DNA of 64,000 nt from Methylotenera sp. (GTDB lineage Bacteria > Pseudomonadota > Gammaproteobacteria > Burkholderiales > Methylophilaceae). The stretch spans positions 62,001 through 126,000 of the forward strand of contig PERG01000003.1 of NCBI GenBank assembly GCA_002928535.1, written 5' to 3'. The notes under the pieces are model-generated. The model was not told the DNA's origin, ran no database searches, and was given only the letters and a program-made list of their open reading frames with translations. Positions 719 to 42,217 of the stretch are shown piece after piece (position 1 is the first letter of the stretch; each line of letters begins with the position of its first letter). Both the position numbers and the translations under genes were made by a program.

Positions 719-893
719 CTCAATTTTCCACCTGGTATTTTAGTTAAGTACAAAGCGGCAAGGATTGAGATGCAAGTAAGGAAAAGTCGATTCCAACTAG
801 ATTTCACGCAAGGTCAAGGCGTTGAGGTTAGCGAAGATGAGACAGTACATTAGTACGGCGAAATCGCCAGAATGTAATTAAGAAAACTCAATT
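719..893 (+). repeat. Intergenic foldback-type element, upstream copy before ychF
   Basis: First of two related units between pth and ychF. Bases 719-773 recur almost unchanged (about 90%) at 887-940 as a direct repeat. The unit contains the core ACAGTACATTAGTACGGCGA (843-862), whose two GTAC words can form a small hairpin. Its own outer arms pair less convincingly than those of the second unit. No protein or transposase is encoded. Together with the next unit it fills the 311 bp gap between pth and ychF. Confidence 0.65.
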
Positions 894-1020
894 TTCCACC
901 TGTATTTTCGTTTAATACAAGGCGGCAAGGATTGAGATGCTGAAGACAGTACATTAAGTACGGCGAAGCAGCGAAGACGCTGCCAACGCAGTAATCAACG
1001 AAAAGATAGACTGGAAAATT
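890..1020 (+). repeat. Foldback element abutting the ychF start codon
   Basis: The left arm (890-912, beginning AATTTTCCA and ending TTTTCGTT) is complementary to the right arm (997-1020, beginning AACGAAAA and ending TGGAAAATT), apart from a short unmatched middle. The core GACAGTACATTAAGTACGGC lies near 944-963. The right arm contains the probable ychF Shine-Dalgarno GGAAAA (1013-1018), six bases before the ATG at 1022, so the fold would hide it. The shared core and locus-specific arms link it to elements before phoH, glyQ, gmhB and dgk. Confidence 0.75.
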
Positions 1021-1021
1021 T

Positions 1022-2107
1022 ATGAAGTGTGGAATCGTGGGCTTACCCAACGTCGGCAAATCGACTTTATTCAATGCCATTACCAAGGCAGGCATCGCAG
1101 CAGAGAACTACCCTTTCTGCACTATCGAGCCTAACGTTGGCATTGTAGAAGTGCCTGACCCACGCTTGCAGCCGCTTATCGATATCGTAAAGCCACAGAA
1201 GGTACAACCGGCAATCGTTGAGTTTGTAGATATTGCAGGCTTGGTAGCTGGCGCTTCTAAAGGCGAAGGCTTGGGCAACAAGTTCCTCGCTAACATTCGC
1301 GAAACCGATGCTATTGCCCACGTGGTGCGCTGCTTTGAAGATGCTAACGTTATCCACGTTGCGAACAAAATCGACCCCCTATCCGATATTGAAGTGATCA
1401 ATACCGAGCTAGCCCTGGCGGACATGGAAACAGTTGAAAAAACCATGCAGCGCGAAGGCAAAAAAGCCAAAAGCGGCGATAAAGACGCCATCGCATTAAT
1501 GGCCGTATTAGAAAAAGTATTGCCGTGCCTGGATCAAGCCAAAGCGGTACGTACCTTAGGCTTGGATGATGATGAATTGCAATTACTCAAACCCTTATGC
1601 CTGATCACCGTCAAACCGGTGATGTACTTAGCCAATGTGGACGAAGCCGGTTTTGAAAACAACCCGCTATTAGACAAAGTGGTAGCGCTAGGCAAAGCAG
1701 AAAACGCGCCTGTAGTATGCATCTGCGCAAAAATCGAAGGTGAAATTTCTGAGCTGGAAGATGAAGACAAACTCCTATTCCTAAGCGAACTCGGCCAAGA
1801 TGAACCAGGCTTAAACCGCGTAATCCGCGCCGCTTATGATTTGCTAGGTCTGCAAACCTACTTCACCGCTGGCGTGCAAGAAGTGCGCGCCTGGACTGTG
1901 AAAAAAGGCGCAACTGCCCCACAAGCCGCTGGCGTGATCCATACCGACTTTGAACGCGGCTTCATCCGCGCAGAAGTGATTCAATATGATGAATACGTGA
2001 AAAACAAAGGCGAACAAGGCTCGAAAGAAGCCGGCAAAATGCGTTTGGAAGGTAAAGAATACATCGTGCAAGACGGCGATGTAATGCACTTTAGATTTAA
2101 TGTCTAA
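1022..2107 (+). CDS. ychF: Redox-regulated ATPase/GTPase YchF (Obg-like)
   Basis: Obg-family P-loop NTPase, ribosome-associated, known in other bacteria to bind ATP and act in translation and oxidative-stress control. The P-loop GLPNVGKST is at residues 7-15, followed by the G2/G3 region with [17 protein letters not shown] near residue 69, a central helical region, and the C-terminal TGS domain ending in [13 protein letters not shown]. The 361 aa length is normal and pth-ychF adjacency is typical. The start is fixed by GGAAAA six bases upstream, inside the right arm of a foldback element. Confidence 0.97.
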
Positions 2108-2121
2108 AACACAAAGTAATT

Positions 2122-2150
2122 TTGACAATTTAGTGTCAAAACACTAGAAT
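2122..2150 (+). promoter_or_regulatory. Consensus sigma-70 promoter for tRNA-Met
   Basis: TTGACA at 2122-2127 is a perfect -35 box and TAGAAT at 2145-2150 a near-perfect -10 box, with a 17-base spacer. Transcription would start near 2157, about 36 bases before the tRNA. The -35 overlaps a small inverted repeat, TTTTGACA (2120-2127) with TGTCAAAA (2134-2141). Confidence 0.85.
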
Positions 2151-2192
2151 TGCGCCTCGCTAGAATTAATAGCAAAAGTTTCAGGTTTGTAT

Positions 2193-2269
2193 GGTGATGT
2201 AGCTCAGCTGGTTAGAGCACAGGATTCATAATCCTGGGGTCGAGGGTTCAAGTCCCTCTTTCACCACCA
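2193..2269 (+). tRNA. tRNA-Met (anticodon CAT)
   Basis: Folds as a cloverleaf: acceptor GGTGATG, D-arm GCTC/GAGC, anticodon stem CAGGA/TCCTG with loop TTCATAA (anticodon CAT), variable loop, T-arm GAGGG/CCCTC, and an encoded CCA at 2267-2269. A C1-A72 initiator mismatch is absent, so it is not initiator tRNA. An elongator Met tRNA is most likely, although a CAT tRNA could also be the lysidine-modified Ile2 species. The acceptor stem is imperfect: the 3' strand TTTCACC leaves a T-T mismatch and a G-T pair at its inner end. Confidence 0.93.
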
Positions 2270-2272
2270 CTT

Positions 2273-2303
2273 AAAAGGCCACATCTTCGGATGTGGCCTT
2301 TTT
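2273..2303 (+). terminator. Intrinsic terminator after tRNA-Met
   Basis: A near-perfect hairpin of AAAAGGCCACATC and GATGTGGCCTTTT around a TTCG tetraloop, running directly into a T run. It closes the tRNA unit and marks the start of the accessory region. Confidence 0.95.
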
Positions 2304-2336
2304 CTTTCTAGGTGAGCGTTTTGTTGTAATGGAAAA

Positions 2337-5210
2337 GTGGCTATACTCACGCTCATGCCGCTTTCATGGAACGAAATAAAAACCCGCGCAAACACATTTT
2401 CAAAGGAGTGGGAAACCGAATCTCGTGAAGATGCAGAAGCCAAATCATTTTGGGATGCGTTTTTTAATGTGTTTGGCATCACACGCCGCCGCATTGCCAG
2501 CTTTGAAGAACCCGTAAAAAAGTCAGACGATAAAGGCGGTTTTATCGATTTGCTTTGGCGTGGCCAGTTACTTGTAGAACATAAGTCGCGCGGTAAAAAC
2601 TTAGACAAAGCTTTCACCCAAGCCAAAGATTACTTTCCAGGTATACAAGAACGCGACTTACCTAAATATATTCTCGTTTCTGATTTCTCAAAGTTTCGCC
2701 TTTACAATCTGGAAACTAACGAACAAGTCGAATTTCCGCTAAAAGAGTTATACCAAAACGTTAAGCTTTTTGGTTTTATTGCCGGCTATCAAACCAAAAG
2801 TTATAAAGCCTCAAGATCCTATTAACATCAAAGCAGCAGAGCGCATGGGCAAACTGCACGATGCGCTTAAAGCAGTAGGCTATCAAGGCCACGCGTTGGA
2901 GGTCTATTTAGTCCGCTTATTGTTTTGTTTATTTGGTGAAGACACAACTATCTTTGAAAAGCGTTTGTTTCAAGACTATATTGAAACCAAAACCAACGCA
3001 GATGGAAGTGATTTAGCGCACCATCTAAGTACTTTGTTTTATGTACTTAATACTGCACCTGATAAACGTCTCAAAAATCTAGATGAAAGCTTGGCAGCTT
3101 TCCCTTATGTAAACGGTAAGTTGTTTGAAGAATCGCTACCACCTGCGCAATTTGATGCAAAAATGCGCGACGCTTTGCTGGATTTATGTGCTTTAGATTG
3201 GAGCATCATTTCACCTGCCATTTTCGGCAGCTTGTTTCAAAGCATTATGAATGCAGAGGCTAGGCGTAATTTAGGTGCTCATTACACCAGTGAAGAAAAT
3301 ATTCTTAAGCTTATCAAGCCCTTATTTTTAGATGCGCTTTGGGTGGAATTCAACAAGATTAAAGGCAATAAAAATCGTTTAGTAGAATTTCACAAAAAAC
3401 TGCGCACCCTCACCTTTTTTGACCCTGCCTGTGGTTGCGGTAATTTTTTAGTCATCACCTATCGAGAACTACGTTTATTAGAGCTGGAAGTGCTGCGGGC
3501 TAGCCGCAACAGTGGCCAACAGGTGCTTGATGTAGAAACGCTGATTAATGTTGATGTTGACCAATTTCATGGTATAGAGATTGAAGAGTTTCCTGCACAA
3601 ATCGCACAAGTGGCGCTTTGGCTCACAGATCATCAAATGAACATGAAAGTATCAGAAGAGTTTGGTAGCTATTTTGCACGTATTCCATTAAAAGCAACGC
3701 CCCATATTGTTTGTGCAAATGCTTTGCAAGTTGAATGGGGAGAATTTTGTCACAACGTCTCTTTTATCTTAGGTAACCCCCCATTTTTGGGAAAAAGTAA
3801 TCAATCTGCCGCACAAAAAAGTGATATGCAACTGGTTTGTGGGCATATCAAGAATGCTGGTTTGTTAGACTTTGTTTCAGCGTGGTATGTTAAGGCAACC
3901 TGTTACATTGCTGGCGACTATAAAGGAAATGTAATAGTTCCTTCACCAGAAGAACAGTCCAGATGGAGAGGTTTTCCCGTTGATGATGAATATAAAGAAA
4001 TGTACAAGCGATATACAGGGCCTGGTAAAAAAAAGGATACTAAGTGTGCTTTCGTTTCTACTAATAGCATTACTCAAGGTGAACAAGTCGGTGTTTTGTG
4101 GGGTTGGATGCTTTCGCGAGAAGTTAAAATTCAATTCGCTCACCGTACATTCAATTGGACTAATGAAGCACGAGGCAAGGCCGCAGTACATTGCGTAATC
4201 ATTGGTTTTGGTATGCATGATGTAACTGATAAAACGATTTATGAATATGCCGATATTAAAAGTGAACCACATGCAATTAGAGCTAACAATATTAATCCGT
4301 ATTTAGTAGATGCACCTGATTTAATTATTGAGAAATCGCGCCGCCCAATTTGCGCTGTACCGGAAATGACATATGGCAGCAAACCTGTTGATGGGGGAAA
4401 CTTATTATTCACTGCTGAAGAAATGACAGAGTTTATTAAAATTGAACCACAAGCTAAAGAATACATTAGACCATTTATAGGTTCTGAGGAATTGATTAAT
4501 GGTAATGGGCGGTATTGTTTGTGGCTAAAAGACGTAAGCCCCCAACATTTACGTCAAATGCCACTAGTCATGGCGCGAATCGAGGCCGTTCGTAAAATGA
4601 GGCTTGCAAGTGCGAAAATACCAACGCAGGATCAAGCAACAACGCCAACTTTATTTGGTGAAATCAGACAGCCAAAAACAGATTATTTGGCTGTACCTGA
4701 AGTTTCATCAGAGAGGCGCAAGTTTGTTCCAATGGCATATTTAACTTCAGATATTGTAGCAAGTAACAGACTTTACACCATTCAAAAAGTTACTGTATAT
4801 CACTTCGGTGTGATTTGCTCATCTATGCACATGGCTTGGATGCGTATTTTATGCGGTCGGTTAAAAAGCGATTTTACATATTCTGCAAGTTTAGTTTACA
4901 ACAACTTCCCATGGCCAGAAGTTAACACCTTACAAACCCAAAAAATAGAAGCAGCAGGTCTTGCCGTGTTAGATGCGCGCGCTGTGCATACCAATGCTTC
5001 GCTGGCGGATTTGTACGATCCGCTCACAATGCCAGCCAATTTATTAGAAGCGCATCAAGCATTAGATAAGCTGTAGATATAGCCTATAGCTACAAAGGTG
5101 CTAAGACTGATGCTGCGCGCGTGGCGTTTTTATTTGAGCGTTACCAACAACTCACCAGCTTGTTGCCAAGCTTAACAAAAGCTAAAAAAATATCAAAAAA
5201 GAATAAGTAA
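2337..5210 (+). pseudogene. MmeI-like type IIL restriction-modification enzyme, frameshifted twice
   Basis: Reads in three pieces: 2337-2825, 2770-5076, then 5077-5210 in the first frame. Joined, it encodes a roughly 950-residue single-chain nuclease-methyltransferase like MmeI. The N-terminal nuclease has a D-x9-E-x-K site (VEHKSRGK near residue 81), the methyltransferase has DPACGCGNFL (motif I) and GNPPF (motif IV), and a target-recognition region follows. The first shift is one extra A in the AAAA run at 2796-2799, which splits FGFIAGYQTK from VIKPQDP. The second, near 5073, lacks one base (CTGTAGAT for CTGGTAGAT), giving a premature stop and cutting off a tail that still reads AYSYKGAKTDAARVAFLFE. 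The start is either GTG 2337 or, more likely, ATG 2355. The upper half ends before the methyltransferase, so the protein should be inactive unless these are sequence errors. A stretch of about 33 residues near 3910-4030 has no counterpart in MmeI as I remember it. Confidence 0.88.
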
Positions 5211-5365
5211 TTTTAAATAATATGCCTTATTGACCAATACCCATGCGGCTTTCCGAGCATGTATGCTTATACTTTTACTGCGTTAAAACCAAATAATCAG
5301 CAAGAACAATGTCATGTAGACCGTATGGATATTGCTAGTAGAGCATACTTATCACATCCAAATGA

Positions 5366-5672
5366 CTAAGCTACCAACAACTCCGCAGGTTTTACTTTCG
5401 CATTAAATTTGCTTCTTGCTTGCCATAACTCATAAGTGGCTTGTTCTGTTAACCACAGATCAGCACGGCCGCCATTCTCTACCCCTAACCATTGCTCAAT
5501 TCTCAATGCCATCTCTGATGAAATTGCTGCACGGCCGTTTAATACTTTTGATAATGATGGGCGCGCAACGCCGAGCTGGTCGGCAGCCTCTGTAATACGG
5601 AGGCCCAATGCAGGAAGCACGTCGTGCTCTTAGCGTTTCGCCTGGGTGGGATGGTTTATGTAATTTGCTCAT
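5366..5672 (-). pseudogene. higA: HigA-family antitoxin, frameshifted
   Basis: Two frames together give a HigA/XRE antitoxin of about 100 residues: MSKLHKPSHPGETLR from ATG at 5672-5670 (AAGGAG just upstream), then DVLPALGLRITEAADQLGV and the rest of the helix-turn-helix (LGVARPSLSKVLNGRAAIS) to the stop at 5366. The switch falls in a small palindrome near 5619-5630 and corresponds to one extra base. Family members normally read LREDVLPALGL here, so the frameshift is clear. It follows a broken toxin remnant. Confidence 0.85.
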
Positions 5673-5683
5673 TAAATCTCCTT

Positions 5684-5745
5684 TCAATGATAGTCTTGAT
5701 AATCAACCAAGATTGCATCCCTTTGTTGAAGTAAAGGTTATAGAA
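5684..5745 (-). pseudogene. higB: C-terminal remnant of a HigB-type toxin
   Basis: Directly before the higA start on the minus strand, the frame ending in TGA (5686-5684) reads DAILVDYQDYH, the typical HigB C-terminus. A few codons further upstream ITFTSTKG fits the preceding strand but in another frame. The rest of the toxin is gone, replaced by the end of the AbiEii-like gene. The toxin is therefore non-functional. Confidence 0.72.
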
Positions 5746-5755
5746 ATTTAGTAAT

Positions 5756-6622
5756 TTAGATTTTTTCTGCCTTATGAAAACCCTGTCTAAAACTGTTTAG
5801 TAAGGCTTCAGCAGCATCCACAGGATTTTCCTTGCCCATTAATGATTGGGCCATTTGTAACACAAGGCCTTCTTTTTTGTTTTCTAATAATGCCGTAATT
5901 GCTTTAACTGTACTTTCATTTGCAATAGCCGCCACATCATAACCAAGTAGCCAAGCCCCCATTTGTTCAGGGTTGTAATCCACAGACTCCATAACCTCTT
6001 GTGTTAGCTCCTCATAAATTCTGTCTGTGTTACCTGCTTCATGGTATGAGCTCAGCAATGTTAAGAGATCAAGTGCATCTTTGTTTTTGGTAGTTGTTCC
6101 ACGCTCTGACCAAGCAAATATTTTTAATATAGTTAGCCCTGCAAGAGAGACAACTTTAATCATCAATTCAGAATTAAGTTCTACCAAGAGAGCAGACTCA
6201 AGCGCCTCATGATAGCCGCTGACGCTCATCACCACATCCATCTCTGGGGGCCATGCAATCATGTTTTTATCATCTTGCACAGCACCAAAAGGAATGATGT
6301 CTACGATATATTCATGTTCAATTAAACTGGATTTATACAGTAACCTTTGCTTCTCTTTAGGCAGTTCCCTAAATTGGCCAGTTGAGATCAAGCAGTGCTT
6401 AATCTGGTTAAACTGATCCCAACTTTCAACAGCAAATGCAAAATCAATATCGCCTGTTGCACGACCAGGGTTTAAACCATGTATATTTTCTAGCAATATC
6501 ACTTTTGCTTGAGCGCCAACCAGCAATAACTCTAGCCCTAGCGCTTTACTCACTTTTTCAATTTCATTTGCAACCTCAACGGTTAGCACGTCTACTTGCT
6601 TGATGGGCTTAATAATTTGCAT
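5756..6622 (-). CDS. AbiEii-like nucleotidyltransferase toxin (type IV toxin-antitoxin)
   Basis: 288 aa protein resembling the AbiEii/AbiGii nucleotidyltransferase toxins, which inactivate cell growth (tRNA-targeting is known for some members) and can cause abortive infection. The nucleotidyltransferase core is visible as VGAQAK followed by GRATGDIDFAF (residues 53-63, catalytic Asp pair in DID). A later K-x3-W-x-R...KD..DL pattern (KIFAWSERGTTTKNKDALDL, about residue 167-186) is typical of the family. It overlaps its partner by 14 bp (start 6622, partner stop 6609), so translation is probably coupled. No frameshift is seen. Confidence 0.83.
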   Translation of the reverse strand: MQIIKPIKQVDVLTVEVANEIEKVSKALGLELLLVGAQAKVILLENIHGLNPGRATGDIDFAFAVESWDQFNQIKHCLISTGQFRELPKEKQRLLYKSSLIEHEYIVDIIPFGAVQDDKNMIAWPPEMDVVMSVSGYHEALESALLVELNSELMIKVVSLAGLTILKIFAWSERGTTTKNKDALDLLTLLSSYHEAGNTDRIYEELTQEVMESVDYNPEQMGAWLLGYDVAAIANESTVKAITALLENKKEGLVLQMAQSLMGKENPVDAAEALLNSFRQGFHKAEKI

Positions 6623-7658
6623 GTTGAATTAACCTGTCATAAATCATTTTCGCCGTCTCTAAGTTTCGCGGATCATTGCTTGCAATCAAATCTGCGTAGA
6701 CCAGTAAAGTTGGTACAGTCTCTGGTAAAAAGTCAGCCTCATCAAAACTCCAAAACGTTTCTAATACCTCGATATCACCATTGGGGTCTGGCACAAGACG
6801 ATTCTCTACAATCAACTTATTTATATTTTTTTTCAATTCCTTGCCATGCACGTACAAAGTGTAAAACTTTGGCTTCAGATAATTGGTAAGTTTATCTGCC
6901 GCAACCTCACCACCCCACTGCGCGTGGTATTTCTTAACATCCAGATTTTTCCACCAATACTGATTGTTTGCTTTAAACCGCTTAGGATTTAATTTGGGGC
7001 GTAATTTAATTGGGTAGTTTGTCACCCACTCTTGGATTAGTTTTTCATGCTGGATCAATACACGATTGTTTTTCTTTCCATCCCCTAGCGTGAGCGCTCT
7101 TGCAGCTAAATCATTAAATCCCCAGCCAACTGCACCCAATGCAATGCCTGCCACTTTGGCTATTTCACGATAAGGTGCATTCAACATCTCAGGATTGCAT
7201 AGCAATGTAAACACCATACGTAGGTTTGTAGGCGTAAGTGTCTTAGTACCTTTTAAATGGTTGTGTTGATTATGCTGATTTGCCTTTTGTCCTTTTATTA
7301 GAATGAAAAAAGCAGGTTCGTTGATATAGGCGTTGCCTGCTAAATCAATAAAGTTTAAACCTAGCTCTTTGCAGTTATTTGCAGCAGCATCTGTCAGTTT
7401 AGGTGCGATAAGTAATGGTGCTAGATTAAAAGCTTCTAGCTGATATTTAACCTGGGCAATAGTTGTAAAACGGTCAACATGTTTAACGTCAACAACAAAA
7501 TCATAGTTTTTTTTGTTGATTTCAACTTGAATAATTGCATCAGCTTGTATATTTAATGCCTCGTACTTAGTCACTTTAATTTGCAACCCAGTAGCCTGCC
7601 TCAGCGCATCTATAGCCTGATCGAGCATGTCTTTATCTTTAATGTTATACAAGTCCAT
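6609..7658 (-). CDS. AbiEi-like antitoxin / transcriptional regulator
   Basis: 349 aa, first gene of the type IV toxin-antitoxin pair. Residues about 1-130 form an alpha/beta region with VVDVKHV and GLNFIDLAGNAYI, the latter common in AbiEi_2-type proteins. Residues about 140-205 look like a winged helix-turn-helix (LRMVFTLLCN, YREIAKVAGIALGAVGWGFN), and a C-terminal antitoxin region follows. AbiEi proteins bind inverted repeats in their own promoter and repress. Two copies of a 17-bp palindrome lie just upstream (7677-7693 and 7746-7762). The start at 7658 has a TTGTTCAC half-site immediately 5' of it. Confidence 0.82.
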   Translation of the reverse strand: MDLYNIKDKDMLDQAIDALRQATGLQIKVTKYEALNIQADAIIQVEINKKNYDFVVDVKHVDRFTTIAQVKYQLEAFNLAPLLIAPKLTDAAANNCKELGLNFIDLAGNAYINEPAFFILIKGQKANQHNQHNHLKGTKTLTPTNLRMVFTLLCNPEMLNAPYREIAKVAGIALGAVGWGFNDLAARALTLGDGKKNNRVLIQHEKLIQEWVTNYPIKLRPKLNPKRFKANNQYWWKNLDVKKYHAQWGGEVAADKLTNYLKPKFYTLYVHGKELKKNINKLIVENRLVPDPNGDIEVLETFWSFDEADFLPETVPTLLVYADLIASNDPRNLETAKMIYDRLIQHANY

Positions 7659-7676
7659 TGTTCACTTTATTTTATT

Positions 7677-7693
7677 GTTCACGTAACGTGAAC
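7677..7693. promoter_or_regulatory. Palindromic operator 1 upstream of the AbiE pair
   Basis: GTTCACGTAACGTGAAC is a perfect 8+1+8 palindrome about 20 bp before the AbiEi start codon. It is the exact reverse complement of the second site at 7746-7762. Position and symmetry fit an autoregulatory AbiEi operator. Confidence 0.8.
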
Positions 7694-7745
7694 ATTACAT
7701 TAAATTGAACGTAAACGTCAATACTTTTGTTCAATTATAGCAATT

Positions 7746-7762
7746 GTTCACGTTACGTGAAC
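7746..7762. promoter_or_regulatory. Palindromic operator 2 upstream of the AbiE pair
   Basis: GTTCACGTTACGTGAAC repeats the operator 69 bp further upstream in inverted orientation. A partial site (GAACGTAAACGTC, near 7707) lies between the two, and a half-site GTTCAC is at the start codon. The 180 bp region holds nothing else recognisable. Confidence 0.8.
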
Positions 7763-7856
7763 TATGGAAATTAATGAACAAAAGTAATGTGCAGGATAAA
7801 ATTAATAGAGCTTGTAGTATGGGTATACCTTCTTAATTTACATGTGATGACGTTCA

Positions 7857-8453
7857 TTATCCGGTCAATTCTCGCAACTTTGCTAGCTCCTCTAACAATG
7901 GTTTAACCATACTTTCCACTTCCACTTGGGTATATCTCGGCGTAATGTGTTGCGGGCAATTCCATTCAATGGCTTCTATATGAATGATGATGCCCCGCTC
8001 AACATGTGCTCTGTAGCTTGGAATTTCCAGTTTTGCAATCATTTCAGGCTCATCCTCCTCATGCACGATGCGCACCGTGCCCCATAATTTAAGGCGGCGC
8101 CGGTTTGGGTAATCCATAAGGATGAGGGATATTCTGTCATTCGCATTTAAGTTACCTACACTTAAATACTGCCTATTGCCCCTGAAGTCAGCATAGCCTA
8201 TTGTGCGTGAATCTAGCACCCGCAAGAACCCAGCCGGGCCACCGCGATGCTGAACATAGGGCCAGTTATTTTCTGAAACGGTTGCTTGATAAAAGCTGTC
8301 GCGAGATTCAATAAACTCTTTTTCGTAATCATTCAATTCGTTTCGCGGATCGTCTGACAGCTCGAAGCTTTGATTCCGCTCGCGGCTGCCGTACCGGCTT
8401 TGAGCCGCTTTGACGCTTTTGGTAAAACTGATGGTTGCAAAGGCTTTAGGCAT
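7857..8453 (-). CDS. Pyridoxamine 5'-phosphate oxidase family flavoprotein
   Basis: 198 aa FMN-binding split-barrel protein of the PNPOx-like superfamily. Signature stretches are WPYVQHRGGPAGFLRVLD, TIGYADFRGNRQYLSVGN, RISLILMDYPNRRRLKLWG and a C-terminal CPQHITPRYTQ. Such proteins bind flavin and often reduce oxidised or xenobiotic substrates; the substrate here is unknown. It lies 50 bp downstream of the AhpD-like gene on the same strand, so both are probably one operon controlled by the divergent LysR gene. It is not the biosynthetic PdxH. Confidence 0.87.
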   Translation of the reverse strand: MPKAFATISFTKSVKAAQSRYGSRERNQSFELSDDPRNELNDYEKEFIESRDSFYQATVSENNWPYVQHRGGPAGFLRVLDSRTIGYADFRGNRQYLSVGNLNANDRISLILMDYPNRRRLKLWGTVRIVHEEDEPEMIAKLEIPSYRAHVERGIIIHIEAIEWNCPQHITPRYTQVEVESMVKPLLEELAKLRELTG

Positions 8454-8503
8454 GGTAGAACTCCTTCCGATTCATCATTCAAATTTCAAAATTAAAACTT
8501 AAT

Positions 8504-9049: not shown

Positions 9050-9178
9050 GTTTATCTCCAATAATGTTTTGTGGCGATGAATTGATTAATTCATCGCATG
9101 CGTGCATTCTTACAATTAACTAATACAATTAGAATATCTATAAAATGCAATTTACTATTGCAGTTAAAGGAATAATGG

Positions 9179-10093: not shown

Positions 10094-10186
10094 TCGGGCA
10101 TTTAAGATTGATAATTATATTTAGCGTTTCCCTGAAATAAAGGTATATTGACCAATCACTTAGATAATTAATAAAACGTACAGTCA

Positions 10187-11325: not shown

Positions 11326-11367
11326 ATCCAAGGCCAAACTAATCAACATGCCGCCAGTCGTAAAACT

Positions 11368-12246: not shown

Positions 12247-12316
12247 AAGTATTTATGAATCAATTTAAGTCAAATCAATCCCATTTGATTAGGTAATTTA
12301 TTATGAGGAGAGATTT

Positions 12317-13372: not shown

Positions 13373-13479
13373 TAGCTTTAAACAGTCTCCAAGCTTATTC
13401 ACTGTATTGATATTGTTATGTACGGATATTAATTAATAGTCAGATAAGCACATAAGATTCTATTTACAAGGTAATAACC

Positions 13480-21960: not shown

Positions 21961-22084
21961 ATAAACCTAAATGCGCAAAATTGGATGTTAGGCGTGGCGG
22001 AAAAAATTGCGAGACATACCACTCAAAATTGGCGAGTAATTTTTGAGTACTCAACAACGCAGACGGCTTGCGCAAGAGGTTTAT
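21961..22084 (+). repeat. Foldback element covering the phoH ribosome-binding site
   Basis: The left arm starting ATAAACCT and containing TGCGCAA (21961-21979) is complementary to the right arm TTGCGCAAGAGGTTTAT (22068-22084). A second inner hairpin pairs ACTCAAAA (22021-22028) with TTTTTGAGT (22040-22048). The right arm includes the Shine-Dalgarno AGAGG (22075-22079) for phoH. The inner core differs from the GTAC core of the ychF, gmhB and dgk elements, but the architecture is the same. Confidence 0.72.
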
Positions 22085-22085
22085 G

Positions 22086-28783: not shown

Positions 28784-28920
28784 CTTCTCTCCTCTACGAT
28801 TAAAGTTAAAAGCGCCAACAACGAGGTCAATATAGGAGGATGCACTACGGGTGTCAATGTATCCAAAAATATTCCATAGAACAATCTGACGGCCCTTCAT
28901 TACAGGCTACAATTTAGCCC

Positions 28921-30432: not shown

Positions 30433-30461
30433 AACCAAGTAAAATCGCACCTCTTCGATTA

Positions 30462-30611
30462 AATTCCGTTTATAAGCAAAAAGTGCTAAATAAAGCGGGG
30501 AAAATAGTACAAGTCGAAGACAGCATGCTGAAGATACTACTCTTGGATACGGCGAGGTGATGCCGACAATAGTATTTTGCTTAGAATATTTTAAGTTTTA
30601 GAAATGGAATT
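30462..30611 (+). repeat. Foldback element before glyQ
   Basis: ATAAGCAAAAAGTGCTA (30472-30488) pairs with TAGTATTTTGCTTAGAA (30570-30586), and AATTCC (30462-30467) matches the ribosome-binding site GGAATT (30606-30611) beside the glyQ ATG. The core with GAAGATACTACTC and GATACGGCGAGG (30530-30556) resembles the GTAC core in the ychF element. The right arm has an extra AT-rich stretch of about 17 bases that must bulge out. Confidence 0.6.
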
Positions 30612-33637: not shown

Positions 33638-33657
33638 TCTAATCAAAGCGAGATACC

Positions 33658-33800
33658 GTGAATTCTTTAGTAATGTGCGAGGTTGTTGCGATGCAAGGCG
33701 CACGGAGCGCAATGACGAAGACAGTCCATTTTGTACGGCTAGGAAATGAGCACCGCGTAACGCTGCAACGCGCTACCGCAGCAATTAATAAAGGATTCAC
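33658..33800 (+). repeat. Foldback element covering the gmhB ribosome-binding site
   Basis: GTGAATTCTTTAGTAAT (33658-33674) is complementary to AATTAATAAAGGATTCAC (33783-33800) with two mismatches. A second tract, TTGTTGCG (33684-33691) with CGCAGCAA (33777-33784), extends the stem. The core GACGAAGACAGTCCATTTTG at about 33714-33733 is followed by TACGGCTAGG. The right arm contains AAAGGA, the Shine-Dalgarno for the GTG start at 33804. Confidence 0.72.
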
Positions 33801-33803
33801 ATT

Positions 33804-34364: not shown

Positions 34365-34368
34365 ACGC

Positions 34369-35070: not shown

Positions 35071-35777
35071 TGCCACACCAACTCATTTTACCTTCCGGTG
35101 AACCGTTGCATTACCAACTGGAACGCAGGCAACGCCGCACAGTGGGTTTAAAAATTACCCCAGAAGGCTTGGTGATTCATGCCCCCAAACGTATTTCACA
35201 ATCGCATCTGGAAAGCTTGATTGTCCTGAAAGCAGACTGGATTCGTAAAAAATTATCTGCCTTAAAAGAAAACCAACTACCGGACTTTCAATGGCAGGAT
35301 AGTGAGCAGTTATTGTTATTGGGCAATCCCATTACATTGTCAGTACGACAAGATACACGTAATAAAGCGGTGGAATACTTACCCGGGCTTTTACAGCTGG
35401 CTCTACCGAACCCTGGTGACGCCAAGTTAATAGAACGCAAAGTGCTGCAATGGTATAAAAAACAAGCCTTGACCGATTTTGCGCGACGGCTTGCAATCTT
35501 CTCGGCCAAGCTTGGTGTAGAAATGCCTCAGCTATTATTATCCAACGCGAAATCTCGCTGGGGAAGCTGTAACTCCAGAAAAGAAGTACGGCTAAACTGG
35601 CGGTTACTTCAGGCACCGCCGCATATTATCAATTACGTGGTGTGCCATGAGCTAGCCCACTTGAAGGAAATGAATCACTCGGTAAAGTTCTGGCAAGTAG
35701 TAGCGAGTATTTTCCCTGACTATAAAGCAGCTGAAAAAGAACTTAAAGCTCTCTCCCCCCAATTACATCGGATTTGA
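35070..35777 (+). CDS. YgjP-type (DUF45) metalloprotease-like protein
   Basis: 235 aa from ATG at 35070, which shares one base with the plsC stop (TAATG). Recognisable family features are LEYQLERR-like N-terminus, SRWGSCNSRKEVRLNWRLL and the zinc site CHELAHLKEMNHSVKFW, with HExxH-type HELAH and a third His nearby. Family members are predicted metal-dependent hydrolases; substrate unknown. Confidence 0.92.
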   Translation: MPHQLILPSGEPLHYQLERRQRRTVGLKITPEGLVIHAPKRISQSHLESLIVLKADWIRKKLSALKENQLPDFQWQDSEQLLLLGNPITLSVRQDTRNKAVEYLPGLLQLALPNPGDAKLIERKVLQWYKKQALTDFARRLAIFSAKLGVEMPQLLLSNAKSRWGSCNSRKEVRLNWRLLQAPPHIINYVVCHELAHLKEMNHSVKFWQVVASIFPDYKAAEKELKALSPQLHRI

Positions 35778-35844
35778 TGTCATTCCGAAATACGCATGCT
35801 AGTATATTTATGCAGCATTTCATGAATCATTAAGGGAGTGATCA

Positions 35845-36180
35845 ATGACTTTTCAAGAAGCAATCAAGTTATGTTTTCAAAAGTATGCAGATTTTAGTGG
35901 GCGCGCTAAACGGCCTGAGTTTTGGTGGTTTGCATTGTTCACATTTTTAGCTAGCATGATATTAGGTGTAGTCAGCAGCATGTTATCAGGCTTATTTAGC
36001 CTGGCCGTCATCGTGCCATCACTTGCAGTAGGTGCACGCCGCTTGCATGATATCGGCCGCTCCGGTTGGTGGCAACTCATTTGGCTGGTGCCAGTGATTG
36101 GCTGGATCATTATGATTTATTGGTTTGTGCAGGAAAGCAATCCTACGACCAATGCGTTTGATGAAACCATTGCTGCTTAA
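35845..36180 (+). CDS. DUF805 membrane protein
   Basis: 111 aa. Typical DUF805 sequence: SGRAKRPEFWWFALFTFLASMILG, then VPSLAVGARRLHDIGRSGWWQLIWLVPVIGW and a final helix and NPTTNAFDE tail. Three or four membrane helices. No function known. The Shine-Dalgarno is AAGGGAGTG (about 35831-35839). Confidence 0.9.
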   Translation: MTFQEAIKLCFQKYADFSGRAKRPEFWWFALFTFLASMILGVVSSMLSGLFSLAVIVPSLAVGARRLHDIGRSGWWQLIWLVPVIGWIIMIYWFVQESNPTTNAFDETIAA

Positions 36181-36189
36181 CACCCAATA

Positions 36190-36220
36190 AATAAAGGGGC
36201 TTTTAAGCCCCTTTATTTTT
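36190..36220. terminator. Intrinsic terminator between DUF805 and SCO genes
   Basis: AATAAAGGGGC and GCCCCTTTATTTTT form a hairpin with loop TTTTAA and a T run. The reverse strand also carries a run of A/T, so it may serve the convergent SCO gene. Confidence 0.93.
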
Positions 36221-36240
36221 AATCCGCGATTTAGACTGTT

Positions 36241-36825
36241 CTACAGAATGGTTTTAATGTCATTGGCAATGTCAGCCGGTTTTTGCCCATAATCTACATA
36301 CAGTCTTATTTTTCCATTTTTATCAAACACATAAATGCCCGCACTATGATCAATGGTATAACCAGCTTTGCCTTCAGCTTTTACTTTATTAGAAAAAATC
36401 TTGAAAGTTTTTGCAGTGGCTTCTATCTCTTCTGGTGTACCGCGCAAACCGATAAAACGTTTATCAAAAGATGGTACGAACTCAGACAATATTTGCTGGG
36501 TATCCCGTTCAGGGTCTAGGGTAACAAACAAAACTTGCAATTCGTCAGCACGCGGACCCAGTAACTTCATGGTTTGCTTCATGTCCGTCATAGTTGTCGG
36601 GCAGACATCCGGGCAGTGGGTATAGCCAAAAAACAAAGCGATGGCCTTGCCTTTAAACTCGTCCAACGTGCGTCGCTTGCCATTGTGGTCCACCAGATCA
36701 ATGCTTTGCGCAAAATCCGCACCGGTAATATCGGTTGCAACCAATGCCGGTTTACTTTTGAACTCACACGCAGCAAGCACGCCTACCAGAATTACCAACC
36801 CAATATATGCAATATAACGTTTCAT
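36241..36825 (-). CDS. SCO1/SenC-family copper-binding lipoprotein
   Basis: 194 aa. Lipobox with Cys20 (VLAAC) makes it a periplasmic lipoprotein. The copper site CPDVC (Cys71 and Cys75) in GYTHCPDVCPTT and His160 in TIDHSAG are intact. SCO proteins deliver copper to the CuA site of cytochrome oxidase or handle thiol-redox tasks. No oxidase genes lie in the window. Divergent from ilvE. Confidence 0.94.
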   Translation of the reverse strand: MKRYIAYIGLVILVGVLAACEFKSKPALVATDITGADFAQSIDLVDHNGKRRTLDEFKGKAIALFFGYTHCPDVCPTTMTDMKQTMKLLGPRADELQVLFVTLDPERDTQQILSEFVPSFDKRFIGLRGTPEEIEATAKTFKIFSNKVKAEGKAGYTIDHSAGIYVFDKNGKIRLYVDYGQKPADIANDIKTIL

Positions 36826-37062
36826 CTCTCTTTTTCACTTTTATCTAAATTAATGCATATTTTATCATGCTGCGCTTTCACTCACGATGAAGGAATGTGC
36901 GCAATGATAATGACCCGGCCGAACACCATACGTTGCAAAACAATAGGAAATGACCACTAAAATTCAACTTAAATGGTTTATAAAGCAAAGAATTAGCTGC
37001 AAAGCACGCGCACAGTCGTTTACAATAGCGCTTTTGCAAAAATCAAGCTTTAAGGAATAGTA

Positions 37063-38007
37063 ATGGCAAACCCAGCAGCAACTTCTGGCGGTATGGCAGA
37101 CCGCGATGGCGTTATTTGGTATGACGGCAAAATGGTCAATTGGCGCGATGCGACGACCCATGTACTGACACATACGCTGCATTACGGCATGGGCGTGTTT
37201 GAAGGCGTGCGCGCTTACAAGACCGACAAAGGTACTGCCATTTTCCGCTTGAAAGAGCATACCGATCGTTTATTCCGCAGCGCACATATTTTAGGAATGA
37301 AAATGCCATTCTCTAAAGAGGAAATGATGGAAGCGCAAAAAGCGGCAGTGCGGGAAAACAACCTGGAATCCGCTTATATGCGTCCAATGGCATTTTACGG
37401 GGCTGAAGCGATGGGCATTTCAGCCAAGACCTTATCAACCCATGTCATTGTCGCTGCCTGGAAATGGGGCGCTTATATGGGCCAGGAAGCGTTGGATCAT
37501 GGCATCCGCGTGAAGACTTCTTCATTCTCACGCCATCATGTCAACATCACCATGTGTAAAGCCAAAGCCAATGGCAACTACATGAATTCGATTCTGGCCC
37601 ACCAAGAAGCGGCACAAGATGGTTACGACGAAGCATTACTGTTAGATGTAGATGGATTCGTTTCTGAAGGTTCAGGCGAGAATATTTTCATCGTACGTAA
37701 CGGCAAACTATACACACCGGATCTGACTTCCGCATTGGAAGGCATTACCCGCGATACGATTGTTCAATTGGCAGCGGAAATTGGTTTAACGATCATTGAA
37801 AAACGTATTACCCGCGATGAAGTCTATTCTTCTGATGAAGCATTCTTTACCGGTACTGCGGCAGAAGTAACGCCTATCCGTGAATTAGATCGTCGCAACA
37901 TCGGCGAAGGTAAAGCTGGTCCAATTACTAAACAATTACAAAAAATGTACTTTGATGCGGTAACAGGCAAGTCAGCTAAGCACACAGATTGGTTAACCCT
38001 GGTTTAA
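37063..38007 (+). CDS. ilvE: Branched-chain amino-acid aminotransferase
   Basis: 314 aa class IV PLP enzyme making or degrading Val, Leu and Ile. Conserved HTLHYGMGVFEGVRAY near residue 36, the PLP Lys in KAKANGNYMNS (Lys168), EGSGENIF and FTGTAAEVTPI are present. The Shine-Dalgarno AAGGAATAG is at 37052-37060. In the same unit as a small zinc-finger protein 24 bp downstream. Confidence 0.96.
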   Translation: MANPAATSGGMADRDGVIWYDGKMVNWRDATTHVLTHTLHYGMGVFEGVRAYKTDKGTAIFRLKEHTDRLFRSAHILGMKMPFSKEEMMEAQKAAVRENNLESAYMRPMAFYGAEAMGISAKTLSTHVIVAAWKWGAYMGQEALDHGIRVKTSSFSRHHVNITMCKAKANGNYMNSILAHQEAAQDGYDEALLLDVDGFVSEGSGENIFIVRNGKLYTPDLTSALEGITRDTIVQLAAEIGLTIIEKRITRDEVYSSDEAFFTGTAAEVTPIRELDRRNIGEGKAGPITKQLQKMYFDAVTGKSAKHTDWLTLV

Positions 38008-38031
38008 CAGTTAACAAATGAAAGTCTATTA

Positions 38032-38220
38032 ATGTCTGACGTTAAAGAGTTTGAAGTGACGGCCAAGGACCTCCCTTTGCATTGCCCAACCAAAGAGGTC
38101 GCGCTTTGGGCATCTCATCCACGGGTTTATATGGACATGACAGAAACGGGTACTGCAACTTGTCCCTACTGTGGGACCGTATACAAACTAAAAACAGGCG
38201 AACACGTTAAATCACATTGA
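38032..38220 (+). CDS. Small zf-CHCC zinc-finger protein
   Basis: 62 aa. Cys-His-Cys-Cys zinc pattern: HCPTKEVALWASHPRVYMDM then ATCPYCGTVYKL. This domain occurs in the NDUFS6-like family and as small stand-alone bacterial proteins. A downstream partner of ilvE in betaproteobacteria; function unknown. Its stop lies in a perfect 13-bp hairpin (38202-38230). Confidence 0.88.
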   Translation: MSDVKEFEVTAKDLPLHCPTKEVALWASHPRVYMDMTETGTATCPYCGTVYKLKTGEHVKSH

Positions 38221-38230
38221 TTTAACGTGT
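38202..38230. terminator. Perfect hairpin across the stop of the zinc-finger gene
   Basis: ACACGTTAAATCA (38202-38214) pairs with TGATTTAACGTGT (38218-38230) around a 3-base loop; the stop codon TGA begins the right arm. No T run follows. A second, weaker hairpin (AAATATGCTTGG with CCAAACGTATTT) is just downstream near 38237-38267. Together they may end the convergent transcripts of ilvE and the entericidin gene. Confidence 0.6.
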
Positions 38231-38263
38231 CGCAATAAATATGCTTGGCTAAACCAAACGTAT

Positions 38264-38416
38264 TTATTTATGCTCTGCTGCTTCTTCCTTGATTTCAGAC
38301 CCGCCTTTTTGAATATCTTCGCCCATGCCCTCCATGGTGTTACAGCCAACCAAAGTGGCTAAAGAACCGGCCAAAAATAACATAGATAATAGGCTTGAAA
38401 CGGTTTTCTTAATCAT
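38264..38416 (-). CDS. Entericidin A/B-family lipoprotein
   Basis: 50 aa. Starts at ATG 38416 (MIKKTVSSLLSMLFLAGS) with AGGAG upstream; an ORF to 38530 is longer but unsupported. The lipobox VGC (Cys about residue 25) is followed by NTMEGMGEDIQKGGSEIKEEA, typical of entericidins. Entericidins are small membrane-active lipoproteins with a bacteriolytic toxin/antitoxin role in Enterobacteria. Only one copy is present here. Confidence 0.85.
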   Translation of the reverse strand: MIKKTVSSLLSMLFLAGSLATLVGCNTMEGMGEDIQKGGSEIKEEAAEHK

Positions 38417-38559
38417 GATTAATCTCCTGATATTATTAATTTTAGAGTTAATCCGCGGAATAAATCCCAAAGACACTCTTATTGGCATCATCCTTGAATA
38501 GTGAGTATAGTTCTGTGCGTTAACGTACAAAGGAATTAGCTAATTAGGGCTAATACGTG

Positions 38560-39426
38560 TTAAGCCAAGAGGGATGAAGCTGGGGCTCTTACAAACGATA
38601 TATTGGCTGTATGACCCCATAATTGACTAATGACTTGCTCCGCATACTCTGTTGTACTATTGGTATAGAAGGTTACGCTGGTCGCGGGGGGTTGGAGCGT
38701 TGGAGTAAGTAAATCCGAAGCGATTAAGCGGTGCTGTAATTGTCTCGCAACGGCCTCACCTGTATCAATTAAGGTGACATGTGGCCCGACAATTTGCTGG
38801 ATCAGCTCTTTCACAAAAGGATAATGCGTGCAGCCTAACACGATGGTATCCGCGCCTTCAGCCAATAAAGGCTGGCAATATCGGCGCAGAAGTTCGTAGG
38901 TGCTCTGATGGTGTAGTTCGCCACGCTCAATACATTCCACCAAACCGATACAGCCCTGGGTGATGACTTTGACATTGCGCCCATAACTTTCCAACAACGC
39001 CGCAAACTGGGCACTTTTCAAAGTACCTACCGTGGCCAGCACCCCAATGACACCATTATGGCTAGCTGCCGCTGCCGGCTTTACTGCCGGTTCCATACCA
39101 ATGATAGGCAGCAACGGATATTTTTCCCGCATCAAATCAACAGCCGCTGCCGTTGCGGTATTGCAGGCGATGACAACCGCCTTTACTTCTTTAGTCAGTA
39201 GAAAATCAATGATCTCAATGCAGCGCGATTGGATTTCAACCTCGGTTTTGTTACCGTAAGGCGCATACAAACTATCCGCAAAATATAAAAGCTGTTCTTG
39301 GGGTAATAAAGCATGAATATGCTTCAATACGGTAATGCCGCCCACGCCGGAATCGAGCACGCCTATTGGTTTATTGGCAGCAGATACGTTTAAAGCATTA
39401 GATGGCTGGATCACGTTGATTGTCAT
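38560..39426 (-). CDS. murI: Glutamate racemase
   Basis: 288 aa. Makes D-glutamate for peptidoglycan. Two catalytic cysteines are visible in CNTATAAAVD and GCTHYPFV, with VLDSGVGGITVLKHI near the N-terminus and YFADSLYAPYG. Divergent from the cobalamin adenosyltransferase gene, with about 60 bp between starts. Confidence 0.95.
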   Translation of the reverse strand: MTINVIQPSNALNVSAANKPIGVLDSGVGGITVLKHIHALLPQEQLLYFADSLYAPYGNKTEVEIQSRCIEIIDFLLTKEVKAVVIACNTATAAAVDLMREKYPLLPIIGMEPAVKPAAAASHNGVIGVLATVGTLKSAQFAALLESYGRNVKVITQGCIGLVECIERGELHHQSTYELLRRYCQPLLAEGADTIVLGCTHYPFVKELIQQIVGPHVTLIDTGEAVARQLQHRLIASDLLTPTLQPPATSVTFYTNSTTEYAEQVISQLWGHTANISFVRAPASSLLA

Positions 39427-39488
39427 GCCTCACAGAGTGGTCATCAGTTACAATAGCCAAATTATAATGGATTGAATAAGGTTGTAGT

Positions 39489-40040
39489 ATGGGGAATCGA
39501 TTAAGTAAAATTTACACGCGTACAGGCGACGATGGTACTACAGGTTTAGGTGATGGCAGCCGTGTCAATAAAGACAGTTTGCGTGTAGAAGCCATGGGCG
39601 ATGCCGATGAGCTTAATTCGGTGCTTGGCATCATGATTACAGAAGGTGTGCCGGATATACTGCTGGAACCGCTAATACAGATTCAACATGACTTATTCAA
39701 TCTGGGCGGCGAGATATGCATGCCGGGCTATGTGATTTTGAAACAAAACCGTATCGATGATTTGGAAAAACTAATCGACACCTTGAACGAAAAACTCTCA
39801 CCACTCAAAGAATTCATCCTGCCTGGTGGAACAAAATCTGCCGCCTATTGCCACCTGGCACGTACAGTTTGCCGGCGTGCTGAACGAAAATTGATTACGC
39901 TAAATCGTACTGAGCCGGTCACGGCTATTTCACTACAATATTTGAATCGTCTCTCCGACTTGTTGTTTGTCATGTGCCGGACCATCAACCAGGTCGCAGG
40001 GGTTAGCGATGTGTTGTGGAACAATGAACACGCAAAATAA
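39489..40040 (+). CDS. Cob(I)yrinic acid a,c-diamide adenosyltransferase (PduO type)
   Basis: 183 aa helical ATP:cob(I)alamin adenosyltransferase. N-terminal KIYTRTGDDGTTGLGDG and ARTVCRRAERKL are diagnostic, as is the C-terminal LNRLSDLLFVMCR. It makes adenosylcobalamin. No other cobalamin genes are in the window. Confidence 0.95.
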   Translation: MGNRLSKIYTRTGDDGTTGLGDGSRVNKDSLRVEAMGDADELNSVLGIMITEGVPDILLEPLIQIQHDLFNLGGEICMPGYVILKQNRIDDLEKLIDTLNEKLSPLKEFILPGGTKSAAYCHLARTVCRRAERKLITLNRTEPVTAISLQYLNRLSDLLFVMCRTINQVAGVSDVLWNNEHAK

Positions 40041-40137
40041 TCTCGTGTATTCATAATGATTTATGATGTTGCTTTCTAAAGAATTTATCTTGCCTGGCGT
40101 TACTAAAGCGGCCGCTTAGGTAAGTTATAATCTGCCT

Positions 40138-41586
40138 ATGATAAAAAAACTGTTCGATAAAATATTTAAGCCAAAAGGCGATAAAGTCTTGAATAAAGAC
40201 TTAAATAAAAATAAGCATAGTGAAACCGCGCCGGCCAAATCTTCTAAACGCCCTACCTTAAGTACAAAAAAAAATGCACGTAGGTCTGCAGATTTAGACA
40301 GTGCAACCATCATCCCGCAAAAGAAACATAAAATCGACCGCACATTGTTAAGCAATGCCGCCATTAAAACGACAGAAGGCTTGCAGAAAGCCGGATTTGA
40401 TGCCTATTTGGTGGGCGGTGCAGTGCGAGACTTGTTACTTAACCGGATTCCAAAAGATTTTGACGTAGCCACGAATGCCACACCAGAAGAGGTGAACCGC
40501 ATATTTCGTCGCTCACGCATCATCGGCCGCCGTTTCCGGCTCGTGCATGTACTGTTCGGTGATGAAACCATCGAAGTCTCTACATTTCGCGGTAGTCATC
40601 TAGAGCCAGATGGCGACTCAAAAGTCACCGACTCAGGCCGGATTATCCGTGATAACGTCTTTGGTTCGATTGTAGATGATGCGATTCGCCGCGACTTTAC
40701 CGCCAATGCCCTTTATTACGACCCAAGTAGTGAAGAAGTACTCGATTTCCACAATGGTTTCCCCGATATCCAAGCTGGCATCTTACGCATGATCGGAAAA
40801 CCGGAAATTCGTTATGCGGAAGACCCGGTGCGTATGCTGCGCGCTGTCAGGTTATCGGCAAAACTTGGGTTAAAAATTGATGCAGCCACCATGGCGCCTA
40901 TCGCAAAAATGGCGGATTTACTTCAAGACGTTCCACCGAGTCGCTTGTTCGACGAAATGCTGAAACTGTTTTTATCCGGGCATGCTATTGAAAGCGTGGC
41001 TGCTTTGCGTGAGCAGCACTTACATCATGGCTTATTGCCTATGCTAGACGTGGTGCTTGAACAGCCATTGGGTGAACGATTCGTGATGCTCGCTTTGCAA
41101 AACACAGACAATCGTATTCTTTCAGGGAAATCCGCCAACCCTAGCTTCCTATTTGCTACGCTGCTTTGGCATGAAGTGTTGGCTGCTTGGGAAAGTTATA
41201 AGGCTCAAGGCGAGCATGCTATCCCTGCCCTGCATCTGGCGATGAGTGAAGTGATTGCCACCCAAGCTGAGAAGCTTGCGATTCATAACCGCTATACCGC
41301 CACTATGAAAGAAATCTGGGGCATGCAGCCGCGTTTCGAACAGCGTTCTGGGAAACGTCCATTCGGTTTATTAACTCACCCACGCTATCGCGCCGGATAT
41401 GATTTCCTGCTTTTGCGTTGCGAATCTGGCGAGCTACCCAAAGAGCTTGGTGAATGGTGGACTACCTTTGCCGACGCTGATAACGAAACACGTACCGCAA
41501 TGTTACAAGCCGATACTGCGCCCAAGAAACGTAAGAAAAGAAATCGCAAAAAACCGAGCACAGCAGCTGCGCCCGAAGCCCAATAA
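40138..41586 (+). CDS. pcnB: Polynucleotide adenylyltransferase
   Basis: 482 aa poly(A) polymerase I, which tags RNA for decay. N-terminal basic tract, then the nucleotidyltransferase head AYLVGGAVRDLLLNRIPKDFDVATNATPEE (catalytic DFD), RRSRIIGRRFRLVHVLF, RRDFTANALYYD, and a Lys/Arg-rich C-terminus (PKKRKKRNRKKPS). Precedes folK by two bases. pcnB-folK-(dgk)-panBC is the usual order. Confidence 0.95.
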   Translation: MIKKLFDKIFKPKGDKVLNKDLNKNKHSETAPAKSSKRPTLSTKKNARRSADLDSATIIPQKKHKIDRTLLSNAAIKTTEGLQKAGFDAYLVGGAVRDLLLNRIPKDFDVATNATPEEVNRIFRRSRIIGRRFRLVHVLFGDETIEVSTFRGSHLEPDGDSKVTDSGRIIRDNVFGSIVDDAIRRDFTANALYYDPSSEEVLDFHNGFPDIQAGILRMIGKPEIRYAEDPVRMLRAVRLSAKLGLKIDAATMAPIAKMADLLQDVPPSRLFDEMLKLFLSGHAIESVAALREQHLHHGLLPMLDVVLEQPLGERFVMLALQNTDNRILSGKSANPSFLFATLLWHEVLAAWESYKAQGEHAIPALHLAMSEVIATQAEKLAIHNRYTATMKEIWGMQPRFEQRSGKRPFGLLTHPRYRAGYDFLLLRCESGELPKELGEWWTTFADADNETRTAMLQADTAPKKRKKRNRKKPSTAAAPEAQ

Positions 41587-41588
41587 AT

Positions 41589-42098
41589 ATGAAACACGCT
41601 TATGTCGCTTTAGGCAGCAATTTGGCCGACCCGATTGCACAAGTGCGTACCGCCATTGCGGCCTTAGGAACCCTACCGCAAACGCAGGTCATTAAGGTTT
41701 CTTCTTTATACCGCACTGCGCCTATTGGCTATAAAGAAGATGAAGTCGCCCAAGTACCTGATTTTATTAATGCTGTAGCAGAGTTGAAAACCGAGTTATC
41801 TCCTGTTGAGTTGCTCGATGCATTGTTCGTTATCGAAAACGCAGCCGGACGTGAACGTCCTTACCGCTACGCACCGAGAATATTGGATTGCGACTTATTG
41901 CTTTATGAAGACGAAGTCCTGAATACGGATAAATTGACCTTGCCACATCCACGTATGCATTCGCGTGGATTTGTTCTATTGCCATTATTTGAAATTGCAC
42001 CGGAGTTAAGCATCCCGAATCATGGCAAAATATCAGCATTACTAAAGCCGCATTTAAATGCTGGCATCCAGAAATTAAAACCTGAGGACGCGAAGTAA
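41589..42098 (+). CDS. folK: 2-amino-4-hydroxy-6-hydroxymethyldihydropteridine pyrophosphokinase
   Basis: 169 aa folate-pathway kinase. Signatures are YVALGSNLADP at the start, ENAAGRERPYRYAPRILDCDLLLYED and LPHPRMHSRGFVLLPL. All catalytic residues are present. Immediately follows pcnB. Its stop codon (42096-42098) lies inside the left arm of a foldback element that extends to the dgk gene. Confidence 0.95.
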   Translation: MKHAYVALGSNLADPIAQVRTAIAALGTLPQTQVIKVSSLYRTAPIGYKEDEVAQVPDFINAVAELKTELSPVELLDALFVIENAAGRERPYRYAPRILDCDLLLYEDEVLNTDKLTLPHPRMHSRGFVLLPLFEIAPELSIPNHGKISALLKPHLNAGIQKLKPEDAK

Positions 42099-42217
42099 AT
42101 GTACTACTTTGGGAAGCAGCACTAGGCATGAGGCACATATAAACCGAGATAGTACTTACAGTACAGCGAGGTTTAGAGTACCAAGTAACAACGTAATGCC
42201 CCAAAGAATACATTTAC
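42095..42217 (+). repeat. Foldback element between folK and dgk
   Basis: The left arm (42095-42118: GTAAATG, TAC, TACTTTGGG, AAGCA) matches the reverse complement of the right arm (42197-42217: TGCCCCAAAG, AATACATTTAC). The core AGTACTTACAGTAC (about 42151-42164) with GCGAGG is the same type as in the ychF and gmhB elements. The folK stop codon is in the left arm. No clear Shine-Dalgarno for dgk is in the right arm. Confidence 0.72.

Follow-up and report, generated by a model that had tools for sequence, protein, structure and literature searches.

Hairpin elements with locus-matched arms in Methylotenera: a probable ERIC-like family dispersed between genes

Five intergenic regions in a stretch of Methylotenera sp. 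DNA (64,000 nt of contig PERG01000003.1, hereafter the window) hold hairpins whose arms pair with each other in a sequence that differs from locus to locus, and the question they raise is whether each is a local switch over the start of the next gene or a copy of something that has spread. We read the five regions and searched them for inverted repeats, and complementary arms were present in all five at the coordinates that a first-pass annotation of this DNA had given. We hold with moderate confidence that the hairpins belong to a dispersed family resembling ERIC repeats and miniature inverted-repeat transposable elements (MITEs), in which the arms drift yet stay complementary and the copies lie mainly between co-directional genes. 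What look like local switches over the starts of genes are, in most cases, probably old members of this one element family. The window contains the following features.

Hairpin copies in the window and their common core

885..1020, + strand: pth-ychF gap, element copy with model core at 907-1002 (R1 E 6e-13); right arm covers the ychF Shine-Dalgarno (SD) sequence
719..884, + strand: truncated or rearranged further copies 5' of the ychF element, by eye; R1 partial match only, 840-861 (E 0.27)
21961..22085, + strand: degenerate copy between miaB and phoH; R1 match 21977-22070 at E 0.08; arms real, core mostly gone
30462..30611, + strand: possible degenerate copy between lnt and glyQ; core remnant by eye
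33658..33803, + strand: glyS-gmhB gap, element copy with model core at 33683-33776 (R1 E 1.5e-15); right arm contains the SD AAAGGA (33790-33795)
42095..42217, + strand: folK-dgk gap, element copy with model core at 42111-42204 (R1 E 1e-14); eroded subfamily-I-type end

A centre shared by most copies had been described before. R1, a covariance model based on eight of this genome's copies, including those before gmhB and dgk, recovered that core before ychF, gmhB and dgk, gave a borderline match before phoH, and had no match listed at E <= 5 in the glyQ region. When the + strand was folded against 200 dinucleotide shuffles per locus, none of the shuffles folded as well as the regions before ychF (z -4.6), dgk (z -4.2) and gmhB (z -3.1), while phoH was borderline (z -2.5; 3/200) and glyQ did not stand out (z -1.5; 19/200). 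At three of the five loci, those before ychF, gmhB and dgk, the elements are real, with a common core and complementary arms. By eye, the core remnant is the CAACAACGCAG side only before phoH and GAAGACAG...ATACGGCGAGG before glyQ. The literal pattern ACAGTAC-N(2-12)-GTACGG occurs in the window only upstream of ychF, twice, against 0.02 expected. By eye, 719..884 also holds a segment similar to the left arm in 889-940, together with the remains of a second type; the latter is intact in genomes G007 and G012.

Reading the copies together gave one layout for an element of about 105-150 bp: an outer variable stem, AAGGC opposite AACRMW, an inner variable stem, and an apical part formed by GA-AGACA-GTAC, a short loop and GTAC-GGC-GA. 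A long form carries an additional conserved stretch, GCACGG...GAGTACCGCGC. Among 22 copies of this genome, AAGGC is 81% identical and AACRMW 69%, and the 12 nt just outside R1 show 30% identity between loci. The earlier statement that the arms differ at every locus holds inside this genome, but the arms before dgk are similar to the end of an element at a different locus in another species (below). A known Rfam family was ruled out: at the gathering score only two tRNAs were matched in the window and nothing at ten element loci. NCBIfam supported the neighbours pth, ychF, folK, glyS, gmhB, miaB, a PhoH-like protein, lnt and glyQ; no NCBIfam family was matched at 1e-15 by the dgk protein, whose name is that of the first-pass annotation.

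Terminal repeats, subfamilies and spread

R1 detected 23 copies in this genome and copies in 33 of the 41 genomes of the genus, where the search listed best matches only and part of these were fetched. Across the remaining genomes of the class, at least 16 of 273 carried a match at E <= 1e-4, a lower bound with at most 16 candidates scored per genome; one of the 16 belongs to the same order. The eight genus genomes lacking a match comprise all seven of 1.2-1.6 Mb (G002, G005, G006, G008, G026, G028, G037) and G015, the only one of the 34 larger genomes to lack one. Altogether, 204 matches were reduced to 182 distinct copies with flanks of 40 nt or more on each side, 22 being dropped for short flanks or as duplicates. 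We refer to the 102 of these 182 that have no recognised end type as orphans.

The copies with recognised ends bear on mobility. Genome G007 holds a young subfamily of which 18 copies with GAGACCTTTGCAAAAGT-type ends were fetched, six of them at contig ends, as expected of collapsed repeats. A pattern search found 11 intact G007 copies, each 143 bp, and exact 5-bp flanking repeats were read at six of the 11, in this young subfamily only. Two more end types flank the same core in other members of the genus, and a fourth, GTTGAAAAACGTCGCGAG...CGCAGCAGTTTTTCAAC, flanks it in other families. At least four subfamilies therefore place shared terminal inverted repeats around one core; their labels, I to IV, were set by us with loose matching, and inspection by eye showed TA ends in subfamilies I and II. 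In being short, in lacking a transposase, in having terminal inverted repeats common to the copies of a subfamily and, in young G007 copies, in the 5-bp target site duplication, these elements resemble MITEs. An autonomous element with matching ends was sought for the G007 ends in G007: all 29 matches fell at known copies, and the search turned up neither a transposase nor a longer element bearing these ends in that genome.

The dgk copy connects the window to these subfamilies. Its arms look like a copy of subfamily-I type that G018 carries at a different locus, with the folK stop codon inside that repeat, and the likeness was seen with L060 and L148; in the window, the folK stop codon sits within the left arm. 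The orphans at dgk, L040, L060 and L154 are probably eroded subfamily copies. It had been argued that a mobile element could not give arms that match only within a locus. That argument is ruled out by the shared ends in G007 together with the dgk likeness. The window copies would be old insertions whose ends have drifted past recognition, and their arms may look locus-specific because of this drift.

Ascertainment by R1 was checked with R2, a mirror-strand model, which again gave 33 of 41 genomes and, at 19 groEL loci, returned the same 20 matches with similar scores. The gene was taken from its sequence to be groEL, and by this groEL fragment the closest named relative is a Methylotenera metagenome-assembled genome. 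Nine of 80 named groEL loci carried an R1 match at E <= 0.1. Seven of the nine lie just 3' of groEL, in Methylophilus (L294, L295, L297), a Methylophilaceae metagenome-assembled genome (L296), Rhodoferax (L365), Curvibacter (L316) and an uncultured betaproteobacterium (L346); the other two lie about 1.3 kb upstream of groEL, behind a putative groES (L317; L353 at E 0.05). Copies directly behind a gene with a groES-looking end were seen by eye at L193, L197, L169, L201 and L317. Three tandem element matches were observed inside 290 bases at L375 301-590 (G017:C21).

Pairing of the arms and how it is kept

We assessed whether the arms outside the model pair more often within a locus than between loci. 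A pairing score of 5 was reached by 83/102 orphans within the locus compared to 154/2,500 combinations across loci, and by 19/22 copies of this genome compared to 41/462. In the first 117 copies (135 matches minus two with short flanks and 16 duplicates), 86% reached this score; the rate was 9.7% for 3,000 pairings made across loci and 2.8% for 1,000 shuffled flanks. Chance pairing was ruled out by the cross-locus, shuffled and slid controls.

That the arms covary was borne out at orthologous loci, where pairing survives changes on both sides. Among five sequences of the groEL 'beta' type, 11 of 39 pairs had changed on both sides and 97.9% of cells were paired; among four ychF sequences the values were 7 of 42 and 97.6%, and no shuffle in 500 was as high in either set. 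Four sequences of the groEL 'gamma' type gave 4 of 36 pairs and 93.8%, with 6/500 shuffles as high. The structures were derived from the same alignments, which biases these figures in their favour; slid versions of the structures paired in 26-48% of cells. Pairs changed on both sides outnumbered those changed on one side by 11 to 2 (groEL beta), 7 to 5 (ychF) and 4 to 3 (groEL gamma), and three adjacent pairs, ychF columns 23-25, were altered in a single sequence. An excess of two-sided changes and neighbouring changes in one sequence are both expected if templates are switched within a hairpin. Complementarity may be kept chiefly by one arm templating the rewriting of the other, with selection on the transcribed hairpin perhaps adding to this.

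The alternative that survives best accepts the same family and has complementarity kept by selection on an RNA hairpin between co-transcribed genes, acting on mRNA stability, processing or translation as for ERIC in Yersinia; we regard it as possible, though the less likely course. NCBIfam was run on the neighbours of ten of the 23 copies in this genome and returned the pairs ahpC/ahpF, TolQ-like/TolR-like (below cut-off), atpD (partial)/atpC, gap/pgk-like, ribE/ribBA, hemA/prfA, iscS/iscU, hisD/hisC, eno/ftsB, and lolC/E with lolD. The positions between ahpC and ahpF, atpD and atpC, iscS and iscU, hemA and prfA, hisD and hisC, and eno and ftsB speak for RNA selection, as do the covariation at groEL and ychF and the effects of ERIC on transcripts described in PMC2229807 and PMC10969869. 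The orientation of copies points the same way. With gene sides taken from open reading frames rather than annotation, most copies lie between co-directional genes: the 102 orphans comprise 46 antisense, 26 sense, 20 convergent and 4 divergent copies and 6 with one side unread, and the 80 other copies likewise include only 4 in divergent gaps.

Against RNA selection stand the wobble pairs and the absence of copies at the window loci from most relatives. Under folding of the host mRNA, antisense copies should show more A.C on the element strand, and an excess of G.T was found in both orientations (GT:AC 35:11 antisense, 32:10 sense), without a flip with gene direction. The whole arms of 83 thinned copies gave 88:30 (composition as the reference, p 1e-5); the excess was weak outside the model (42:24; p 0.14), and 18 groEL copies gave 22:13. 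The wobble counts do not favour folding of the host mRNA. R2 performs as well as R1, so the element may fold on either strand. We lean towards arm-templated correction over RNA selection.

Taken further, this reading describes a class-wide hairpin that is rewritten by arm-to-arm templating: it enters with transposon ends, loses their sequence memory, stays a palindrome, and settles at the border of an adjacent gene, with a preference for its right arm as the side of contact. We offer this extended version tentatively. If it is true, such DNA is conserved by self-complementarity and not by sequence, and repeat finders miss it for that reason. If the family reading is right, many single-copy intergenic hairpins in the operons of these bacteria would be old copies of one family, invisible to sequence search, rather than bespoke regulators. 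The family would also offer a natural system for separating selection on RNA structure from mutational palindrome correction, which covariation analysis confounds; where two-sided changes are offered to prove an RNA function, palindrome correction would have to be controlled for.

Gene borders, remaining alternatives and known repeats

The one-sided contact between arms and gene borders is left unexplained by the favoured family reading. In 37/70 cases the right arm of an orphan ends no more than 3 nt from the stop codon of its right neighbour, compared with 4/47 for the left arm and left neighbour (Fisher exact test; 4e-7); these counts include groEL orthologues, and the thinned set gave 29/57 and 3/38. 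Copies with recognised ends showed contact in 17/47 cases on the right and 8/41 on the left (p 0.10), and in young G007 copies the distances to genes vary. Contact with a stop codon or a ribosome-binding site (RBS) might follow from insertion into the very short gaps between operon genes, after which the arm could serve as a local RBS.

A foldback at insertion, in which the core arrives, the left arm is copied from the host flank and the right arm is old host sequence, draws support from the right-sided stop-codon contact, and we judge it unlikely. It gains from the SD stretch ACTGGAAAA, which also stands before the ychF start in the element-free genomes G016, G023 and G029, and from G004, which has the RBS-side stretch alone at phoH and, in the same form as G000 and without core and left arm, at gmhB. 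The gmhB case reads better as a later deletion. A AAAGCGAG stretch is common to G000 and more distant species and missing from G004, so a deletion in G004 is the simpler order of events. In addition, the other 14 relatives read have a miaB-phoH gap of at most about 20 nt, almost nothing from which an arm could be copied, young copies share their ends, and the dgk arms resemble a mobile end elsewhere. The earlier idea that the RBS strand had been copied by foldback is not supported.

The view that the elements are cis-regulatory RNA folds hiding the start region of the downstream gene is very improbable: the SD lies within the right arm at ychF and gmhB (by eye at phoH) and four species retain base pairs across the SD of ychF, but among 30 loci read at each gene the element was recognised upstream of ychF in 6, dgk in 2 (G000, G004) and gmhB in 1 (G000), rather than being conserved at orthologous loci, only 12 of the 102 orphans have the right arm near a start codon, and the same core occurs in both orientations to genes. 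These 12 are the orphans, out of 30 whose right neighbour starts there, in which the arm ends -3 to +15 nt from the start codon; in the window it ends 1 nt (ychF), 3 nt (gmhB) and 9 nt (dgk) away. Contact of the right arm with the SD had been proposed for four loci. It stands at ychF and gmhB, and the contacts at phoH and glyQ were seen by eye only. Masking of the RBS as the common theme is not supported, with start contact in 12/30, stop contact in 37/70 and most relatives lacking the element at the window loci.

Another palindromic repeat, of a GTCATTCCCGCG...GGGAATGAC type, was observed upstream of ychF in G003, G013, G018, G024 and G027 and upstream of gmhB in G001 and G025. Its presence at the same borders in other species indicates that the ychF and gmhB gaps attract unrelated palindromes.

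Several points weigh against a MITE-like family with drifting arms. The mirror-strand model equals R1, and the G007 ends led to no transposase or longer element in G007. Only the dgk copy has been traced to a shared end, the descent of the other orphans being drawn from the core alone, and ACTGGAAAA in element-free relatives leaves room at ychF for an arm of host origin. The covariation sets are small (4-5 sequences), with structures taken from those same alignments, and the sharp contact of the right arm with stop codons is not accounted for.

Among the closest known systems, ERIC (also IRU or RU-1) of Enterobacteriaceae and Vibrionaceae is an intergenic hairpin of about 127 bp that is co-transcribed with its neighbours. 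The ERIC consensus, AAGGCGGCAAGG...CCAACACAG, resembles by eye the AAGGCGGCAAGG...CCAACGCAG of the ychF copy. When R1 was run on 891 bases with an ERIC region from E. coli, the full model scored 5.3 bits (E 1.4), which is not significant, and the present elements differ in having arms that vary between copies yet pair. PMC2267715 describes V. cholerae ERIC copies with eroded terminal repeats, and PMC2229807 and PMC10969869 treat ERIC, YPAL and other MITEs as short stem-loop elements and report that ERIC 3' of Yersinia genes can alter transcript levels. YPAL (RU-2) of Yersinia is alike by description, being a palindromic intergenic repeat with target duplications that lies in or beside dyad symmetries (PMC2229807). 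REP, BIME and REPIN sequences with RAYT are likewise dispersed intergenic palindromes, but REPs measure 20-40 bp and carry tags according to PMC3733652, and the elements here are longer with another core. No description of this core was found in the literature, which was searched in open-licence papers only, so that absence from print is not implied.

Palindromes inside coding sequence are described for Nematomorpha mitochondria in PMC6649704. Rickettsia palindromic elements (RPE) can also lie in frame in genes, whereas copies of the present family are mostly intergenic. One in-frame copy was observed here, in genomes G000 and G004, at L031 about 1501-1595 (G000:C26) and L181 301-395 (G004). 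The gene that holds it, which we take from its sequence to be hemF, gains roughly 40 residues ahead of WWFGGGMDL in both genomes.

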